A DNA stretch of 44,589 nt from Pseudomonadota bacterium (GTDB taxonomy: Bacteria; Pseudomonadota; Gammaproteobacteria; CALCKW01): NCBI GenBank assembly GCA_039196715.1, contig JBCCUP010000033.1, forward strand, positions 1 through 44,589, read 5' to 3'. The notes beneath the pieces are model-generated. The model saw only the letters and a list, made by a program, of their open reading frames with translations, was not told the origin of the DNA and did not search any database. Below are positions 13,726 through 23,702 of the stretch, piece after piece (within the stretch, counting starts at the first letter, position 1; every line of letters begins with the position of its first letter). Made by a program: the position numbers and the translations under genes.

Positions 13726-15396
13726 ATGACCGCGCTGCCCACCATCCTGGCGGCCCTCGGCGCCGCGATCTGCATCGCCGTCGAACGCCTGGCGGACCGC
13801 ACCTGGGAGGCGGTGTTGAGCCAGGACACACGCATCGCGTTGGCCGCCGCGTTGGCCGCCGCGGGGGTGAGCTTCGCGCTGTGTCTGACGCCACGGCGTC
13901 CGCTGCGGGACACCGGCTTTGCGCTGGTCGGCGGCGCCACGGTCGGCGGCCTGGTGTACGGCCAACTCCACCTCGACACGCTGAACGGGTACAGCGTGAC
14001 GACGGTGTTCATTGCGCTCGGCATCGCCTTGCCCCTCTACCAGGCGAGCGGGCCGCACCCGCGCTCGCTCTACGCCGCATTGCACCGCCACGCCTGGACC
14101 AACATCATCGTGGGCAGCCTGAGCCTGGTGTTTGTGGCCGTGGCGTTCGCCTGCGCATTCTTGCTGGCCGCGCTCTTTGCCCTGGTCGAGATCGACGTGC
14201 TGAAAGACTGGCTTGAGAACGCGACGTTCAACGCAGGGCTTGCGGGCGCGGCTGCGGGCGCCGCCGCCGGCGTGTTGCGGCAACACCACGGTGTCGTCTC
14301 GGCCACCCAGGGCGTGGTCCAGAGCGTGTTGTCCATCCTCGCCGTGCCCGTGGGCATCGGCCTGCCGGTGTTCCTGCTCGCCCTGGGAGGCACCGGGCTG
14401 AGCCCGCTGTGGGACGCAGACTGGAGCGCAACGGTGACCGTTCTCAGCGCGGCGAGTCTGGCGGTGCTGCTGGCCAACAGCGTGTTGCGCAGCAGCGACG
14501 AGGACGTCACCGACAACCCGGTCACGCGGCTCGCCGCCCGCGCACTCGGCCTCTGCGTGCTGCCGTTGACCGCGATCGCCGCTATCGCGCTCGCACTCCG
14601 GGTTGAAGCCCACGGGCTGACACCCGAGCGCATCTGGGGTGGCATCGCGGTCGCCGTCGCGTTGCTCTACGGCCTGGCCTATCTGGTGGCCCTGCTGCCC
14701 GGCCCACTGTGGATGAACCGCGCTCGCCGGGGCAACGTGGTGCTCGCCACGCTGGTCTGCGCCCTGGCACTGATCCTCGCGACGCCAGCACTCGACCTCG
14801 GCGCCATGGCGGCCAGACAACAGCTCGCGCGGGTCAGCGCCGGCGAGGTGACGGTGGATCAGTTCGACGCCGCGGCGCTCGCGCACGATTTCGGACCCGG
14901 GGGACGGCGCGTGCTTGTCGAGCACGACCCAGGCGGCGACGCCGCGCTCAGCGAGCGCATCGCCGTAGCCCTGCAGGAGGATGGCAAACACCAACAGGCG
15001 CTCGGCACGCTGAAGGCGCTGTTGACAGTGCAACCCGCCGGGCGAGCCGCGCCGGACGCGCTGCTCGAGCTGCTGATCTCGCGTCGCGCGTGCGACGGCA
15101 GCTACTGTTATCTCGTGCTGGCACCGACGCACGCCATGACCGTGTCGGACACGTGCTACCGGCGCAATCGCAGCTGCCAGCCCAGCGTCCGTCACTTCAT
15201 TCTGTCCGAGAACGGTTGGGGCCGATACTACGGGCAACACGACCGAATCGAGTCCGGGCAGAACATCGAACTGAACCGCGCCGCCGCCGCCGGCGCCATC
15301 AGCCTGCGCACGGTCACACGCGCGCAGGTCTACATCGGCGACACCCCGGTCGGTCAGCCGTTCAAACCGGGGCCGTTTGCCGAGCTCCTCGAGTGA
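13726..15396 (+). CDS. DUF4153-family polytopic membrane protein
   Basis: A 556-residue protein from the ATG at 13726. The first ~370 residues form about ten hydrophobic segments (for example IIVGSLSLVFVAVAFACAFL and GNVVLATLVCALALILATPA), matching DUF4153 membrane proteins. The C-terminal ~190 residues are soluble and contain a four-cysteine cluster (RRACDGSYCY, DTCYRRNRSCQ), unusual for a cytoplasmic domain and compatible with a periplasmic disulfide-bonded region. Function unknown. The last 35 bp overlap the 3' end of the convergent LysR gene. Confidence 0.72.
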   Translation: MTALPTILAALGAAICIAVERLADRTWEAVLSQDTRIALAAALAAAGVSFALCLTPRRPLRDTGFALVGGATVGGLVYGQLHLDTLNGYSVTTVFIALGIALPLYQASGPHPRSLYAALHRHAWTNIIVGSLSLVFVAVAFACAFLLAALFALVEIDVLKDWLENATFNAGLAGAAAGAAAGVLRQHHGVVSATQGVVQSVLSILAVPVGIGLPVFLLALGGTGLSPLWDADWSATVTVLSAASLAVLLANSVLRSSDEDVTDNPVTRLAARALGLCVLPLTAIAAIALALRVEAHGLTPERIWGGIAVAVALLYGLAYLVALLPGPLWMNRARRGNVVLATLVCALALILATPALDLGAMAARQQLARVSAGEVTVDQFDAAALAHDFGPGGRRVLVEHDPGGDAALSERIAVALQEDGKHQQALGTLKALLTVQPAGRAAPDALLELLISRRACDGSYCYLVLAPTHAMTVSDTCYRRNRSCQPSVRHFILSENGWGRYYGQHDRIESGQNIELNRAAAAGAISLRTVTRAQVYIGDTPVGQPFKPGPFAELLE

Positions 15397-16285
15397 GGCC
15401 GCCGGCCTCGAGCCGTGCCGACAGCACACCGGCCTGTGCGACCACGAGATCGGCGAAGGTCGCCGCAGCCGGGTTCAACTCGCCCTCGGCCAGCAGGTGA
15501 ACCGTGCGGGTGACCGCGTTGTCCGCGAGCGGCAAGGTCGCGACCGAAGCCGACTCGGGCACGGCCAGGGCCGGCAACAGCGTCACGCCGAGCCCGCGTT
15601 CGACGAAACTGATCATCGAGGCCACGTTGTGCACCGTGACGGCCGGGTCGGCAGTCAGTGCGTCCACCTCGGTGCGGCCGATCAGCCCCAGCAGACCGTG
15701 GGCAATGAACCGCTCGCCGGCGAGTGCAGCCCACTGCACGGGCCGACCCGTTTTCACCAACCAGTGGTCGGACGCACACACGACCAGAAACGGTTCGGTC
15801 AGCAGCGTGTGCGCGCGGGTGGTCGGACTGACAGGCGCGCGGCTGGCCAGGCCGATGTCGGCTTCGTTGTCGCGCACGAGCTCGCTGACGGCGAGTGAGT
15901 CGACGTCGCGGATTTCGAGCGCGACGTCGGGTGCCGCCTGCTGAAACGCCGCGACCACGTCCGGCAACAGGTGCGTCGCGATCGACGGCACCGCGGCGAC
16001 CCGCACGCGCCCGATCCGACCGGCGGCGTAATGGCAGACGGCGAGCATCGCCGTGTCGAAATCGGCCACGGCAACCCGCGCGCGCTCGAGCGCGAAGCGC
16101 CCGAGTGCCGTGAGCTGCGATTTGCGCTCACCGTCGAACAGCGGGCCGCCAAAGGTAGCCTCCAGTTGTTTCATGGTGGTCGACACAGCAGAGGGCGTGC
16201 GGTTGAGGCGCTCGGCCGCTGCGGCCAGCGTGCCGCACTCCGCGACGGCGATGAACGCCCGCAAGGCGTCGGGTTTTGGCAACAT
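15362..16285 (-). CDS. LysR-family transcriptional regulator
   Basis: A 307-residue regulator with the LysR winged helix in residues 1-60 (AFIAVAECGTLAAAAERLNR, SAVSTTMKQLEATFGGPLF) and a periplasmic-binding-like effector domain from about 90 to 295. It is divergent from the aldehyde dehydrogenase at 16402, the classic arrangement for a LysR protein and its target. The shared 116-bp region has AT-rich inverted and direct repeats that could be its binding site. It probably responds to a substrate or intermediate of the downstream pathway. Confidence 0.93.
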   Translation of the reverse strand: MLPKPDALRAFIAVAECGTLAAAAERLNRTPSAVSTTMKQLEATFGGPLFDGERKSQLTALGRFALERARVAVADFDTAMLAVCHYAAGRIGRVRVAAVPSIATHLLPDVVAAFQQAAPDVALEIRDVDSLAVSELVRDNEADIGLASRAPVSPTTRAHTLLTEPFLVVCASDHWLVKTGRPVQWAALAGERFIAHGLLGLIGRTEVDALTADPAVTVHNVASMISFVERGLGVTLLPALAVPESASVATLPLADNAVTRTVHLLAEGELNPAAATFADLVVAQAGVLSARLEAGGLTRGARQTAPV

Positions 16286-16401: not shown

Positions 16402-17850
16402 GTGCGCACACAAAACCACATTGCCGGCGACTGGGTGGCTGGCGCGTCCACCGTGCCCAATCACAACCCGTCGGACCTCAGCGACGTCATTGGCCACTTC
16501 GCCCAAGCCGACACCGCAGACCTGCACCGTGCCATCGACGCGGCAACCGAGGCGCAGCGCGCCTGGGCCAGAACCGGTCTCGAACACCGCCAAGCCGTCT
16601 TGCACCGCATCGGTGAAGCCCTCATGGCACGCGCGACTGAACTCGGTACACTGCTCGCGCGCGAAGAGGGAAAGCCGCTCGCCGAAGGCAAAGGTGAGGT
16701 CTACCGCGCCGGCCAGTTCTTCACCTACTACGCGGCCGAGGTGCTGCGTCAGATCGGCGACACGGCCGACTCCGTGCGACCGGGTGTCGAAGTCACGGTG
16801 CACAGGGAGCCGGTCGGCGTGATCGGCATCGTCTCGCCGTGGAATTTCCCGACCGCCACCGCCGTCTGGAAGATCGCGCCCGCGCTCGCATTCGGCAATG
16901 CCGTCATCTGGAAACCCGCCAACCTCGTGCCCGCGTCCGCCGTCGCGTTGACCGAGATCATCGCCAACCAGACCGAGCTGCCAGCGGGCCTGTTCAACCT
17001 CGTGATGGGCAGCGGTGGTGCCATCGGCCAGGCGCTGGTCGAACACCCCGGAATCGACGCGATCAGCTTCACCGGTTCAGTCGACGTCGGCAAGGGCATC
17101 GCCGCCGCCACGGCACGAAATCTCACCAAGTTGCAGATGGAGATGGGCTCGAAAAACGCCCTCGTCGTGATGGACGACGCGAAGCTCGACACCGCCGTGG
17201 CCGCCGCCGTTGGCGGTGCCTTCGGGGGCACCGGGCAGAAGTGCACGGCCTCTTCGCGCGTGATCGTGCACCGCAAAGTGCACGATGAGTTTGTCGAACG
17301 CTTCGTCGCCGGTGCCAAGGCCCTGACCGTCGACCACGCACTCAAGGACGGCACCCAGATCGGTCCGGTCGTGAGCGAAACCCAACTGCAACAGAACCTC
17401 GACAACGTCGAGCTCGGCAAACGCGAGGGCGCCGAACTCGTCTGCGGCGGCGACCGCGCGACGCGCGAGACCGACGGCTATTACATGAACCCCGGTGTCT
17501 TCATCGGCGGCACCAACGCCATGCAGATCAACCGCGAAGAACTCTTCGCCCCGCTCGCGTGCGTGATCGCGATCGACAGCTACGACGAAGCCCTCGCCAC
17601 CGTCAACGACACCCGCTTCGGCCTGACCTCCGGCATCATCACCGAGTCACTCGCGCGAGCCACACACTTCCGCCGCCACGCGCAAACCGGCTGTGTCATG
17701 GTCAACCTGCCCACCGCCGGCACCGACTACCACGTGCCCTTTGGCGGTCGCGGCGAGTCGAGCTACGGTCCACGCGAACAAGGCCAGTACGCGGCCGAGT
17801 TCTACACCACCGTCAAGACCAGCTATATCGCCGCCGGAGACCCAGTGTGA
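16402..17850 (+). CDS. NAD(P)-dependent aldehyde dehydrogenase
   Basis: A 482-residue member of the ALDH superfamily, near the succinate/alpha-ketoglutarate-semialdehyde dehydrogenases. Visible active-site elements are Asn148 in SPWNFP, the general base Glu247 in QMEMGSKNALVV, and the nucleophile Cys281 in GGTGQKCTASSR. The start is GTG, with GAGGGGA a short distance upstream. The stop overlaps the GTG start of the next gene (GTGA, 17847-17850), so it is coupled to the M19 protein. In this locus it may oxidise an aldehyde released by upstream steps; the substrate is inferred only. Confidence 0.92.
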   Translation: MRTQNHIAGDWVAGASTVPNHNPSDLSDVIGHFAQADTADLHRAIDAATEAQRAWARTGLEHRQAVLHRIGEALMARATELGTLLAREEGKPLAEGKGEVYRAGQFFTYYAAEVLRQIGDTADSVRPGVEVTVHREPVGVIGIVSPWNFPTATAVWKIAPALAFGNAVIWKPANLVPASAVALTEIIANQTELPAGLFNLVMGSGGAIGQALVEHPGIDAISFTGSVDVGKGIAAATARNLTKLQMEMGSKNALVVMDDAKLDTAVAAAVGGAFGGTGQKCTASSRVIVHRKVHDEFVERFVAGAKALTVDHALKDGTQIGPVVSETQLQQNLDNVELGKREGAELVCGGDRATRETDGYYMNPGVFIGGTNAMQINREELFAPLACVIAIDSYDEALATVNDTRFGLTSGIITESLARATHFRRHAQTGCVMVNLPTAGTDYHVPFGGRGESSYGPREQGQYAAEFYTTVKTSYIAAGDPV

Positions 17851-18833
17851 GCGCTGTGCGGATCGACGGCCTGCAATACGCCAACTGGTCGGAGACCATC
17901 TTCCGTGAAATGCGCGCAGGCAAGGTCGACGCGGTGCACGTGACCATCGCTTACCACGAGAACTTCCGCGAGACCGTTGCCAACTTCGAAACCTGGAATC
18001 GCTGGTTCGAGCGGTACCCCGACCTCATTTGCAAGGCGGTCTCCGGCGATGACGTGCGCGCAGCCAAAGTTGCTGGCCGCACCGCGATCGTGTTCGGTTT
18101 CCAGAACCCCTCGCCCATCGAAGACGACATCGGGCTGGTTGAGATCCTGCACGCGCTCGGCGCGCGCTTCATGCAACTCACCTACAACAACCAGTCGCTG
18201 CTGGCGACCGGGTGCTACGAGGCCGAAGACACCGGCATCACCCGCATGGGCCGCGAAGTCATCCGCGAAATGAACCGTGTGGGCCTCGTGATCGACATGA
18301 GTCACTCGGCCGAACGCTCGACACTCGAGGCGGCCGAGATCAGCGAGCGACCGATTGTGGTGAGCCACGCCAACCCCACGAGCTGGCACCCGGCGCTGCG
18401 CAACAAATCAGAGGCCGTGATGCGCGCGCTGGCCGAGAGCGGCGGCATGCTCGGATTCTCGCTCTACCCACACCACCTGAGAGGCGGCTCCGACTGCACA
18501 CTCGAAAGCTTCTGCCAGGCGATGGCGGATGCCGCCGAGGTCATGGGCGTCGACCACCTCGGCATCGGCTCCGACCTCTGCCAGGACCAGCCCGACAGCG
18601 TGGTCGAGTGGATGCGGGTGGGCCGTTGGAGCAAATCGATCGACTACGGCGAGGGCTCGGCCGACAACCCGGGCTTCCCGCCGATGCCGTCCTGGTTCGG
18701 CGGCAACACTGATTTCGACAACATCCAGGCGGGGCTGCGGGCAGTCGGTTTCAGCGCGAGCGATGTCGACGCCCTCATGGGCGAGAACTGGCTGCGGTTC
18801 TTCGACGCCAATTTCAGCCCGAAAGCGACCTGA
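17847..18833 (+). CDS. Divergent M19 (membrane-dipeptidase) family protein
   Basis: A 328-residue TIM-barrel protein from the GTG at 17847. Family features include GARFMQLTYNNQSLLATGCY, GLVIDMSHSAE, PIVVSHANPTSWHPALRNK and DHLGIGSDLCQ. The usual N-terminal metal motif (DGHxD) reads DGLQYAN, and the usual GIEGG metal-ligand site reads GFQNP, so key zinc ligands are not apparent. There is no signal peptide, so it is cytoplasmic. Its position between an ALDH and DUF3726/MttB-type genes suggests a hydrolytic or isomerising step in the same pathway rather than ordinary dipeptide cleavage. Confidence 0.82.
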   Translation: MSAVRIDGLQYANWSETIFREMRAGKVDAVHVTIAYHENFRETVANFETWNRWFERYPDLICKAVSGDDVRAAKVAGRTAIVFGFQNPSPIEDDIGLVEILHALGARFMQLTYNNQSLLATGCYEAEDTGITRMGREVIREMNRVGLVIDMSHSAERSTLEAAEISERPIVVSHANPTSWHPALRNKSEAVMRALAESGGMLGFSLYPHHLRGGSDCTLESFCQAMADAAEVMGVDHLGIGSDLCQDQPDSVVEWMRVGRWSKSIDYGEGSADNPGFPPMPSWFGGNTDFDNIQAGLRAVGFSASDVDALMGENWLRFFDANFSPKAT

Positions 18834-19127: not shown

Positions 19128-20804
19128 ATGCACAGTGACACAGCCTTACGCGATCCGAATGAGGTCACCCACCTCGCGCGACTCGGCAGTGCCCATGCGC
19201 ACCGGCTGTCGTTCATGCGGGTGTTGTTGCGCCGGCTGAAACGCGAGAACTGGCGCTTCAGCCGCCACCGCTTCGAGATCGACGCCAGTGGCGTGGGCCG
19301 TGCTGTCTACCTCGCCGCCGGCCCCGAACGCACCTACGCGCTGGTGGCCTTTGCCCACGATCTGCCCGACGAACTACGTTCCGACCGCGTGATCGCCGAG
19401 GCGTGGGACACCACCTTCTGCTTGCACGACGGTGTCCCAACCGACGCCGACCTCGACCGTCTGGCGGCCAACGTCCCCAAACAGGAAGCCGGCCGCATCA
19501 GCGGACGCGAACTGTCGCTCTCGCGCGCAAACCGGTCCGTGCGCCTGTTCAAAACGGTGATCGACGCCTTGTCGCGGGGCCAGCAGCCCGACGCCGACGA
19601 GCTGATGCGGGTCGGGTACCTGATGCGCACCACCGCCGTGTACGGCTCGGGCAAATTCGGCGCTGCCGACCGCGACGCGATCGCCGGCCGGGCCGAGTTC
19701 ACGAGCCCGTTTCAGGTCGAACTGCTCAACGTCTACCTGATCCGCGCCTTCACAGTCGACCTGGTCGAACACATGGCCATGGCCCGAGGCGGCGACAATG
19801 CGGTCGCGCTGGACCCTGCGCTTCGGCGCACGCTCGGCGTGGGCAATTCGACCGGGCTCGGCATGGCGCCCTTTCTGGTCAACCACCCGCGCCTGACGCA
19901 CGCCTGGCTGCACGCGCGCGAGACCGCGCTGGCCCGGGTGCGGGCGCTGCCAACAGCAACACAGCAAGGCGTCGAGACCTTCGTACAGTTTCTGCGCCGC
20001 GCCCAGCGCAACGCCGACACCTGGCACAGTGAGCACCCGGTTCAACAACCGAAAATCGCGTCACTGGTGGCAGACTTGAACCGCCTGAGCCACCACCTCG
20101 ACAGCTTTGACTGGCAAATAGCGCAACCCTGGAACGCCCTGTGGCGCTGGGCGGAGTCTGCACTCGGGCTCGAAGGCCAGGAACAACTGCTGGCGCTGAT
20201 GCTCGAACCGCACGGCGTGCTCGTCGACGACCTCGCAGACCGCCTCTCGACCGCGGAGCCGTTTCCGGCGCTCGACGCGCGCGGCACCGTGGGCAGCCTG
20301 CAGGCCTTCCTCGACACCCACTACGCTTGGGCGCTGTCCATCGACCACACGTCCGACACCAGCCGCGCACGCTTCTGGTACGTCTCGGAGGAAAAACTCG
20401 AACCGCGTCTCGGCGAACGCTTCGATGAACCCGGTGCCGAGCGCGAGCAACCACTCGGCATCAGCTGGCAAATTCGCCAGCTCGCCGAGGCACTCGCCGC
20501 CTGCGACCCCGATCTGCCACTGGCTGATTTTCTCGCACGCCACCCCGAACACCGGCACACCGTGCGCCGCGCTCAGCTCGCGCCGCAGCACCCCTACATG
20601 GAGGTGCGCGACAACCTGCTCGACGCAACCATGCTGCCGATCGACCTGCTGCGCGTGAAGCTCGCGTTCTTCGGTGCCAACCGCTTTGATCCGCGCTCGG
20701 ACCGCTGGCTGCGCATCACGATGTTCCAACACGCCCCCTACCCGCACGAGCTGCAGGCCGGCGAGGCCGATGACTGGTGCTACCCGCGGGTCGCCAACGC
20801 GTGA
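19128..20804 (+). CDS. Uncharacterised 558-residue protein
   Basis: No known domain was recognised. It is soluble, Arg/Leu/His-rich and largely helical in appearance, with no signal peptide or membrane segment. Distinct blocks that look conserved rather than random are VGYLMRTTAVYGSGKFGAAD, GVGNSTGLGMAPFLVNHPRL and NRFDPRSDRWLRITMFQHAP. The stop overlaps the GTG start of the DUF3726-like gene (GTGA at 20801-20804), suggesting a stoichiometric pair. The ATG at 19128 follows GAGGTCCAGAGC. Its position in a LysR/ALDH/M19/MttB neighbourhood implies a metabolic role, but none can be named. Confidence 0.85.
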   Translation: MHSDTALRDPNEVTHLARLGSAHAHRLSFMRVLLRRLKRENWRFSRHRFEIDASGVGRAVYLAAGPERTYALVAFAHDLPDELRSDRVIAEAWDTTFCLHDGVPTDADLDRLAANVPKQEAGRISGRELSLSRANRSVRLFKTVIDALSRGQQPDADELMRVGYLMRTTAVYGSGKFGAADRDAIAGRAEFTSPFQVELLNVYLIRAFTVDLVEHMAMARGGDNAVALDPALRRTLGVGNSTGLGMAPFLVNHPRLTHAWLHARETALARVRALPTATQQGVETFVQFLRRAQRNADTWHSEHPVQQPKIASLVADLNRLSHHLDSFDWQIAQPWNALWRWAESALGLEGQEQLLALMLEPHGVLVDDLADRLSTAEPFPALDARGTVGSLQAFLDTHYAWALSIDHTSDTSRARFWYVSEEKLEPRLGERFDEPGAEREQPLGISWQIRQLAEALAACDPDLPLADFLARHPEHRHTVRRAQLAPQHPYMEVRDNLLDATMLPIDLLRVKLAFFGANRFDPRSDRWLRITMFQHAPYPHELQAGEADDWCYPRVANA

Positions 20805-21367
20805 TCGTGTCGCTCGGCGAAGTGGAGGCGATGGTGCGCAAGGCCGCGCGCGGCGCTGGCTGGCCGTGGGGCCATGCCGAGGAACTCGGCGCGAGTGCGC
20901 GGGCCTTGTGCGCGGCAGGGTTTCCCGGCGCCGCGCTGGCGGCAGCGCTGCTGGACGCACACGGCGACGACGGTACCTGTCCGATTCGTCAGTCCGCGCA
21001 CTGGTGTGACACCCGGCAGCTGCCTGACGCTTCCGTCACCGTGCGCTGCCCGCTGTTGAGCGTGCCGTTGCTTGCGACGGTGTTCTGTTCTGACAACCGT
21101 GTCCTTCAGGCCCGGTGGGACGGGGCCATGATCACCGCCGATGCTACCGGCCACACCTGCGCAGACGACCCACACCGGGCCGCGACCACCGGCGCCCGCG
21201 GTATCAAGTTCACCGCCGTACACCACACACCCGCCAGCCAGGCGGTTGCGCGCGCCGTCGGCGTCGAGGTGCAAGATGCCAACTGGCACGCGCTCGACCG
21301 CCACGCCCAACACAGCTACGTGCCAGCCAGCGAGCAATCGCGCATGGGCGCCGGGCCAACAGACTGA
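20801..21367 (+). CDS. DUF3726-like protein
   Basis: A 188-residue protein whose N-terminus (VSLGEVEAMVRKAARGAGWP, then WGHAEELGASARAL) matches the pattern of the uncharacterised DUF3726 family. The C-terminal half has no familiar motif. The GTG at 20801 overlaps the preceding stop and removes the extension that would lie inside the upstream gene. It is soluble, with no signal peptide. The tight coupling with the 558-residue protein suggests the two act as one complex. Confidence 0.75.
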   Translation: MIVSLGEVEAMVRKAARGAGWPWGHAEELGASARALCAAGFPGAALAAALLDAHGDDGTCPIRQSAHWCDTRQLPDASVTVRCPLLSVPLLATVFCSDNRVLQARWDGAMITADATGHTCADDPHRAATTGARGIKFTAVHHTPASQAVARAVGVEVQDANWHALDRHAQHSYVPASEQSRMGAGPTD

Positions 21368-21458: not shown

Positions 21459-21938
21459 GTGCCCAAGCGACAGTCCGGCTTTACCCTAATTGAGTTGATG
21501 ATTGTGATCGCCATCATCGGCATTCTTGCGTCGATCGCTGTGCCGTCCTACCGCGACTACGTGCGCAAGAGCAACGCGGCGGAGGCGCTGGCTTTGCTCA
21601 AGACCATGTCCGACAAGGCGATCCACTTTTACAACGTGAACGGCACCTTCCCGTTTCGGACGTCGACCATCGCAGCGTGGGATTCGAGTGTCTCGGCGAC
21701 AGAAACCGACTACGCAACCGATGTGGTGCACTCAATCCACTTCCGAAACGATGTCGGGCCAGCCAATTCTGGTCAGGTGTGGGTGCGGCTGAACGGCGGC
21801 GTCTTTGGGCCCAGCGGTCGGCGCCATTTGCGTGCTGTGCTGCAAGATCGCGGTGGTATCATCACGGTCGACTGGTGCGATCAAACCGGTGGCTGGCCCA
21901 CTGAGACCGATATCTGGCACTACTTTGACTGCCCATAG
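21459..21938 (+). CDS. Type IV pilin-like protein (PilA/PilE class)
   Basis: A 159-residue prepilin with a short positively charged leader, cleavage expected between Gly7 and Phe8 ([19 protein letters not shown]), Glu12 at mature position 5, and the hydrophobic N-terminal helix. Two cysteines near the C-terminus (VDWCDQTGG and HYFDCP) would close the D-region disulfide loop. It is an isolated single gene: no other pilus assembly gene is nearby, so it may be an accessory or minor pilin using machinery encoded elsewhere. A perfect terminator follows 25 bases after the stop. Confidence 0.93.
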
Positions 21939-21989: not shown

Positions 21990-22160
21990 GTTTAGCCGCG
22001 TTGGGAACCTGTGCGGACCCACCGGTCTGGCCATTTCACTCGCCAACTCAAGGTCAACGGCCTGAAAGCGACATCGCGTCGCGCACACCGTCGTTTCCGG
22101 GCTCGCAAGAGGCCAATCGCCAAACGTACAGTGGCTGCTTTGCACCACGCCGCATCAGCC

Positions 22161-23702
22161 ATGTCCGAGCCCAACCGCCGCCGCAGTCGCCAGTCGCGTC
22201 GCACCGCGCGCCTCGATCAACGCACGCCCATGCTGCCCGCCCTGACGCGCCGCTTGCCCTTGACCGAGCCGATGGACGAAGAACAGATCCGCAAAGTGGA
22301 CGACGCCTCAATGTCGATTCTCGAAGAGGTTGGCGTGGTGTTCCGCGATGAGATCGCGCTTGACGACTGGCGCTGCGCCGGTGCGAAGGTGGTCGGCGAG
22401 ACGGTCTACCTCGACCGCGCCCACGTGCGTGAATTGATCGCAAGCATTCCAAGCAGCTTCACCTACCACGCGCGCAACCCGGACAACCATCTACCCTTCG
22501 GCGGTGACCGCGCGATCTTCGTGCCGATGACGGGCGCACCCTACCTGCGCGACCTCGACGACGTTCGACGCGCACCGACGCTCGCGGATCTGGCCAATTT
22601 CCACAAGCTCGCGCACATGCTGCCATCGATGCACAGCTCGGCACACCACATCGTCGAGCCGATGGACCACCCCATCAGCCACCGGCATTTGCGCATCACC
22701 TACTCGTCCATGAAGCACTCGGACAAGACCTTCATGGGCATGACCACGAGCCCGAAGAACGCCGAAGACGTGCTCGACATGGCAGCGATCCTGTTCGGTG
22801 AGGACTACCTCGAAACCCACCCGGTGGTCACCGGCAACTGCAACGGCAATTCACCGCTCGTCTGGGACGAAGTCATGCTCGGCGCCTTGCGCGCCTTCAG
22901 CCGACGCAATCAACCGATCCTGTGCTCGCCTTTCGTGCTCGGCGGCGCGAACACGCCGGCGTCCACAGTGCCCGCAGTGGCCCAACTCAACGCCGAGGCC
23001 CTGAGTTGCCTCGCCTACACCCAGGTGGTGCGCAAGGGCGCCCCCGCGATCTACGGCCACTACCTCAGCACGGTGTCGATGGCCTCGGGCGCGCCAATGG
23101 CGGGCACGCCGGAAATCAGCCTCATGAACTTCATGATCGGGCAGATGGCGCGGTTCTACGGCGTCCCGTGGCGCACCTCGAACACCCTCGGTGGCGCGAA
23201 AACGCTGGATGCACAAGCCGGGTACGAGAGCGCGACCACACTGATGGCGGTGTTGATGGCCGGCGCAAACTACATCTGGCATTCCGCCGGGTGGAACGAG
23301 GCCGGCATGCACTGCTCGATGGCAAAATTCGTTGTCGACGCCGAGCAGTGTGCAGCCGGCTACCGCATGGCCGAGGGGTTGCGTTGGGACGACTTCGACG
23401 CGGCCCTGGCCGCCGTTCGCGACATCGGCCCGGGCGGTCACTACCTCGGCCACGCGCACACCATCGAGAACTTCCAGCGCGCGTTCTTCATGCCGAAGCT
23501 CTTCGACAACAACAGCTACGAGCAGTGGGTTGCCGAAGGCGAGCTCGACACCACCGCGCGTGCGATCACCAAGGTCCGACAGCTGCTCGAAGCCTACGAG
23601 GAGCCGCAGCTCGACCCGGGCACCGACGAGGCGCTGCGCGACTACATCGCACGACGCGAGCGCGAGATCCCCGCTGCTGACGCGCTCAACAACACACACT
23701 GA
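22161..23702 (+). CDS. MttB-family (trimethylamine methyltransferase-like) protein, non-pyrrolysine
   Basis: A 513-residue member of the MttB superfamily from the ATG at 22161, after which the basic N-terminus RRRSRQSRRTARLDQ is typical. Family blocks: ASMSILEEVGVVFRDEIALD, GNCNGNSPLVWDEVMLGALR, LGGANTPASTVPAVAQLNAE, LGGAKTLDAQAGYESATTLM and AGANYIWHSAGWNEAGMHCS. There is no in-frame amber codon, so it belongs to the pyrrolysine-free branch, which demethylates quaternary amines such as glycine betaine. No corrinoid protein or activator is present in the window. Substrate not determined; convergent with the hotdog gene, 9 bp apart. Confidence 0.9.
   Translation: MSEPNRRRSRQSRRTARLDQRTPMLPALTRRLPLTEPMDEEQIRKVDDASMSILEEVGVVFRDEIALDDWRCAGAKVVGETVYLDRAHVRELIASIPSSFTYHARNPDNHLPFGGDRAIFVPMTGAPYLRDLDDVRRAPTLADLANFHKLAHMLPSMHSSAHHIVEPMDHPISHRHLRITYSSMKHSDKTFMGMTTSPKNAEDVLDMAAILFGEDYLETHPVVTGNCNGNSPLVWDEVMLGALRAFSRRNQPILCSPFVLGGANTPASTVPAVAQLNAEALSCLAYTQVVRKGAPAIYGHYLSTVSMASGAPMAGTPEISLMNFMIGQMARFYGVPWRTSNTLGGAKTLDAQAGYESATTLMAVLMAGANYIWHSAGWNEAGMHCSMAKFVVDAEQCAAGYRMAEGLRWDDFDAALAAVRDIGPGGHYLGHAHTIENFQRAFFMPKLFDNNSYEQWVAEGELDTTARAITKVRQLLEAYEEPQLDPGTDEALRDYIARREREIPAADALNNTH

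Follow-up and report, generated by a model that had tools for sequence, protein, structure and literature searches.

Two overlapping genes in the window (the whole 44,589-nucleotide stretch of DNA analysed here) appear, on balance, to encode obligate subunits of a single catabolic enzyme, which most likely acts on homarine or a closely related N-methylated ring acid. The first gene (19128..20804, + strand) begins with ATG and encodes a 558-aa protein (hereafter 558), the putative catalytic subunit, with no assigned family. The second (20801..21367, + strand) encodes a 188-aa protein of the DUF3726 family (PF12525), the putative partner subunit, for which a reduced Ldh_2-type fold is modelled. 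The genes share the sequence GTGA (20801..20804, + strand), in which the GTG start codon of the second gene (20801-20803) interlocks with the TGA stop codon of the first (20802-20804); both reading frames and their overlap are as described in the first-pass annotation. The longest mechanically called reading frame for the DUF3726 gene starts at 20777 and spans 196 aa, and use of the GTG start gives the 188-aa product. On the 3' side of the pair are a type IV pilin-like gene (21459-21938), judged by eye to encode a prepilin-like N terminus, and then an MTTB-family (trimethylamine methyltransferase) gene (22113-23699), a relative of which occurs in 1 of 80 related loci.

Operon context and candidate substrate

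The pair sits in a catabolic operon with LysR, ALDH, and M19 genes, often joined by BCCT, Ldh, or RidA genes. In the window, these comprise a divergently oriented LysR-family regulator (15362..16285, - strand; Pfam HTH_1 and LysR_substrate), an aldehyde dehydrogenase (ALDH; 16402..17850, + strand; PF00171), and an M19-family metallohydrolase ('membrane dipeptidase'; 17847..18833, + strand; PF01244), the start of which overlaps the ALDH stop. A total of at least 576 stretches carrying 558 relatives were recovered from a GTDB-based genome collection and 80 loci were kept, labelled mostly as Rhodobacteraceae, with the remainder being MAGs of other proteobacteria and, in a few cases, of other groups. 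Neighbour clusters in these 80 loci included M19 (at least 70), ALDH (at least 61), LysR (at least 50), BCCT transporter (at least 28), Ldh_2 (at least 21), and RidA (at least 21), all of which are lower bounds because many contigs end early; by tblastn, an M19 relative was detected in 74 of the 80 loci, compared with the 70 identified by clustering.

The ALDH and M19 proteins of the window are 71% and 73% identical, respectively, to those of Ruegeria TM1040. The best NCBIfam model for the ALDH is alpha-ketoglutaric semialdehyde dehydrogenase, at 476.5 bits and thus under its cut-off of 770, and the M19 protein matches PF01244 at 245.9 bits (cut-off 26), with 2i5g, an 'amidohydrolase', as its nearest solved relative. 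Classical M19 dipeptidases carry an HxD zinc motif at the N terminus. The N terminus of the window protein reads IDGLQYANW and that of 2i5g likewise has IDGL without HxD, both as read from the unaligned sequences. For the Ldh encoded in the TM1040 operon, the nearest solved relative is delta1-piperideine-2-carboxylate reductase (1wtj, 4.8e-53). Neither an Ldh nor a BCCT gene adjoins the pair in the window, and the nearest Ldh encoded in the genome is 42% identical.

A possible link of the operon to the homarine catabolic pathway comes from Ruegeria TM1040 and Phaeobacter, in which its LysR gene is adjoined by a helix-turn-helix (AraC-type) gene and by genes encoding subunits similar to those of sarcosine oxidase. 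The NCBIfam subfamily-level name of these subunits is sarcosine oxidase. Judged from gene neighbourhood, they are nevertheless probably N-methylglutamate dehydrogenase (Mgd), and the context favouring this assignment is that of a single locus in a Roseibium album genome (L114). That locus encodes proteins 81% (beta), 75% (delta), 70% (alpha), and 41% (gamma) identical to those of TM1040. Next to their genes is an AraC-like gene (28% identical to its TM1040 counterpart), and genes for glutamine synthetase III and glutamate-synthase-like proteins are close by, a set of neighbours that points to the N-methylglutamate pathway. In another locus (L116:11839-13164), a gene for an L-pipecolate-oxidase-like FAD protein (139 bits, cut-off 600) adjoins Mgd-type genes. 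According to one study, the AraC gene tmaR adjoins mgdABCD, Mgd was recently reported to take part in homarine catabolism, and homarine is a ubiquitous marine metabolite (PMC13390433). Fast homarine drawdown by R. pomeroyi is described in another (PMC12817926). Beyond the Mgd statement in PMC13390433, the available parts of PMC9723723, PMC9038784, and PMC12817926 contain no account of homarine genes.

The co-occurrence of Mgd and 558 was evaluated in 198 genomes sampled from the family to which G143 belongs (the Ruegeria meonggei genome that contains locus L080). At an arbitrary cut of at least 704 bits, Mgd type was present in 40 of 92 genomes with a 558 gene versus 21 of 106 without one (odds ratio 3.1, p 4e-4, uncorrected for relatedness), leaving 52 of the 92 without Mgd type at this cut; when all 80 matching genomes were accepted, the corresponding values were 50 of 92 and 30 of 106. 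By coordinates, Mgd-type genes lie within about 12 kb of the 558 gene in 4 of the 40 genomes (G238, G227, G252, and G269). Among the 80 named loci, L016 is the only one whose stretch contains Mgd-type genes of close similarity (77% and 68%). Of ten named genomes, three lack Mgd type and seven carry it, in no case beside the operon within the stretch that was read; neighbours from the N-methylglutamate pathway were looked for in one of these seven, that of L114, and were present there. The genome of the window has no close Mgd copy, the best match being 48%. In a whole-genome search of G000, a sarcosine oxidase alpha subunit had 23 matches, the majority confined to its GcvT-like part, which suggests much demethylation chemistry.

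The pair and operon might instead act on another N-methylated cyclic compound (e.g., stachydrine, homostachydrine, or trigonelline), a reading considered possible but rather unlikely. It would fit the frequency of betaine-type transporters near the pair (BCCT in at least 28 of 80 loci and glycine betaine ABC genes in some), the trimethylamine-methyltransferase-family gene close to the pair in the window and in a Mesorhizobium locus, and the majority of 558-carrying genomes that lack the tested Mgd type. It is opposed by the Mgd-type genes beside the operon, found in few lineages, and by the piperideine-2-carboxylate-reductase-like Ldh, which fits a six-membered 2-carboxylate ring. Homarine is favoured rather than proven as the substrate, which may differ from one lineage to another.

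Pairing of the two genes across genomes

A DUF3726-type gene lies after the 558 gene, or is fused to it, in all 80 kept loci (of at least 576 stretches). These partners were recognised by BLAST clustering in 72 loci and by translation in 5; 2 were fused and 1 was ended by its contig after 61 residues, and the Pfam profile was run on the partners of L045 and L079 alone. Of the 78 unfused pairs, 65 could overlap by 4 nt (59 of the 72 clustered and all 6 translated). Fusions of 558 to DUF3726 were found in L014 and L027 and, in addition, in an annotated 814-aa CDS in Mesorhizobium; the former two are MAGs, where a frameshift artefact is possible, and the latter is carried on the plasmid of an isolate. 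In four loci labelled as Acidimicrobiales MAGs (L021, L060, L078, and L086), the 558 genes are 56-59% identical to that of the window, which could reflect transfer or misbinning.

Among 143 genomes around that of the window (itself included), the same 5 carry both genes, side by side. In the 198-genome sample, DUF3726 was detected in 83 genomes, the 558 gene in 92 (with G260 scored positive from a 72-position 558 fragment), and both in 82. Separate occurrence of the two genes in most genomes, which the first-pass annotation had named as evidence against a complex, is the reverse of what was observed: 85 of 86 DUF3726 places in this sample are directly downstream of a 558 gene. The exception is a DUF3726-like gene in G209 (L152:2299-2895, - strand) that has neither a 558 neighbour nor the tail motif described below. 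Nine of the ten genomes scored as 558-only (all but G250) were inspected. In eight of these, the 558 gene overlaps that of a partner which has a DUF3726-like tail at its end and was missed by the Pfam model, and the ninth encodes a partner of the Sinorhizobium meliloti type. The coupling of 558 and DUF3726 is therefore far from chance.

More distant relatives of 558, at about 28-34% identity, are encoded on pSymB of S. meliloti and in Neorhizobium, Mesorhizobium ciceri, and the haloarchaeon Natrinema, and in each the partner gene is next with a 4-nt overlap. S. meliloti and Neorhizobium have an M19 gene after the pair; in M. ciceri and Natrinema, none is annotated beside it. On a plasmid of Natrinema versiforme (L091:9968-12624), the 558 relative overlaps a 317-aa partner with a BCCT transporter downstream. 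This partner matches PF02615 at 4.8e-9 and 36.2 bits, slightly under the cut-off of 38.8, and ends in a DUF3726-like APxS...GAG tail. The rhizobial partners are only weakly similar to DUF3726, and that of S. meliloti has no DUF3726 match in Pfam. The S. meliloti cluster (L127:7944-17662; the same cluster in strain 2011 is L090) resembles the window in its 558 relative (about 29%), overlapping partner, and subsequent M19 gene, but differs in having an IclR regulator, an ABC transporter, an aminotransferase, and a succinate-semialdehyde dehydrogenase. Since the pair is accompanied there by the latter two enzymes, substrates may differ between lineages, and the S. meliloti cluster may break down a different ring compound, with a GABA-like product.

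The complex that the first-pass annotation considered probable is thereby supported indirectly, by near-perfect adjacency, a retained translational overlap, and the fusions at three loci. A reading in which the two proteins serve the same pathway but form no complex, with the coupling merely tuning expression, could invoke the 4-nt overlaps that join other genes of the operon as well, such as the ALDH and M19 genes of the window. Such a reading is nonetheless quite improbable given the three fusions, the solo occurrence of DUF3726 in just 1 of 86 places, and the retention of the pair in a haloarchaeon and in rhizobia despite different neighbours.

Predicted properties of the two proteins

Assignment of the second protein to DUF3726, as proposed in the first-pass annotation, is borne out by its match to PF12525 at 45.7 bits (gathering cut-off 22.1). 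This was the sole Pfam match; none to Ldh_2 (PF02615) was obtained at E values up to 1, and a PDB sequence search with the DUF3726 alignment returned zero matches. The structural model of the lone chain (pLDDT 91.4) nevertheless aligned best with solved chains of the Ldh_2 type, which account for all 14 entries at Z 9.0-11.0 (rmsd 3.5-3.9, 159-171 residues aligned); the fifteenth entry scored Z 7.9 and the next unrelated one Z 3.7. Foldseek, one of the comparisons suggested in the first-pass annotation, gave a weak result for this model when used by itself (best E 0.064, TM about 0.40). In profile comparison, DUF3726 aligned with the true Ldh proteins of the operon over the N-terminal 42 columns (E 1.4e-4, probability 53%).

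The histidine of the SHG motif has a catalytic role in the Ldh_2 family. Manual extension of the 42-column alignment placed this residue at DUF3726 position 44, which is never histidine in 68 of 68 DUF3726 sequences, and positions 43-46 each contain at most one histidine. DUF3726 proteins have the modelled fold and an N-terminal helical region in common with Ldh_2 (PF02615; YiaK, AllD, and DpkA), along with a C-terminal helix pattern that looks alike, as judged by eye from weak profile alignments. They differ from Ldh_2 in their length (188 aa versus about 335), the lack of the SHG histidine, an additional conserved C-terminal tail, and their nearly invariable pairing with a 558-type protein. 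In the window, this tail (YVPASEQSRMGAG...) is encoded at 21317..21364 (+ strand). Its motif is present in 57 of 68 aligned partners and narrowly missed in 10 more, and L010 lacks the motif. The alignment comprises the window and 67 of 72 loci, and the count therefore excludes the translated partners and L036, L048, L051, L068, and L085, four of which have short partners. Confidence in the lone-chain model drops to 71 and 62 over the final residues. Together, the model and these differences can be read as describing a decayed Ldh_2 dehydrogenase with an added tail, and it is proposed that the tail docks on the 558 protein.

For 558, zero Pfam families were matched at E values up to 1, in agreement with its description as an unknown in the first-pass annotation. 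The sole NCBIfam match, to a VapB model at 13.5 bits (cut-off 60), was also the sole toxin-antitoxin hint. The AlphaFold2 model of 558 scored well (pLDDT 90.9, pTM 0.92), and no solved fold was found for the whole chain with Foldseek (best E 0.55) or VIA-align (best Z 4.8). Searching PDB sequences with the alignment of 558 relatives returned three weak matches to coiled-coil or adhesin fragments (best E 0.61). Faint structure-search rows for START-like proteins and argininosuccinate lyase were too weak to be accepted as the fold.

A total of 33 positions, many of them charged or polar, are invariant across 75 sequences of 558 relatives that reach down to about 28% identity; these include R87, D94, R123, N135, R139, R167, R206, N240, E265, E352, W417, Y418, E425, R427, and R481. 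Five of the 75 sequences come from outside the main 558 alignment, which consists of the window and 69 of 78 unfused loci (the fused L014 and L027 were left out, as were L015, L020, L024, L030, L031, L053, L055, L065, and L068). The alternative that 558 is a scaffold, a transporter accessory, or a regulator would accord with the lack of a solved fold, a family match, or a recognised cofactor motif, but it is very unlikely, since invariant charged and polar positions are what an active site would give. The statement in the first-pass annotation that neither protein has a known activity needs amending in light of the modelled dehydrogenase-type fold of DUF3726 and an operon context suggestive of N-methylated ring catabolism.

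A possible reaction scheme and its implications

In the favoured reading of the pair as one enzyme, 558 would carry the active site, and DUF3726, an Ldh_2 dehydrogenase minus its SHG histidine and almost half its length, would probably dock on or complete that site through its C-terminal tail. The enzyme would act within an operon that supplies LysR, ALDH, and M19 proteins and often a betaine-type transporter and a cyclic-imine-reductase-like Ldh. Homarine is N-methylpicolinate, and N-methylglutamate has one carbon fewer. Cleavage of the ring between carbons 5 and 6 would yield an N-formyl C5-semialdehyde. This opening of the ring would fall to the pair because, judging from gene content, the other steps can be given to the ALDH, M19, and Ldh proteins. 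The ALDH would oxidise the C5 semialdehyde, the M19 hydrolase would cleave the N-acyl bond, possibly N-formyl, and saturation of a C=N or C=C bond by the Ldh would provide N-methylglutamate for Mgd. More tentatively, 558 may represent a new enzyme fold that opens the ring of N-methylpyridinium carboxylates; its obligate partner would be a decayed dehydrogenase contributing a tail to complete the active site, and the module would be common to bacteria and haloarchaea and adapted to several ring substrates.

The terms 'DUF3726' and 'PA5396' were absent from the open literature searched, and neither the reading of DUF3726 as a decayed dehydrogenase, nor the fusions, nor the relatives in archaea and rhizobia came up there in searches not aimed at each of them. 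The abstract of Ferrer-Gonzalez et al. 2026 (Nat Microbiol, doi 10.1038/s41564-026-02313-7), on the homarine catabolic pathway, reportedly mentions homABCDER as an operon of Rhodobacterales and SAR116. The 558/DUF3726 cluster is carried by Rhodobacterales and by the SAR116 loci L054, L063, and L084, and if homABCDER is this cluster, the genes of the pair may already be published. If the proposed function is correct, at least 576 relatives now recorded as a 'hypothetical protein plus DUF3726' would be unified as a single enzyme of two parts whose substrate can be tested, and a protein with no known fold would gain a likely chemistry.
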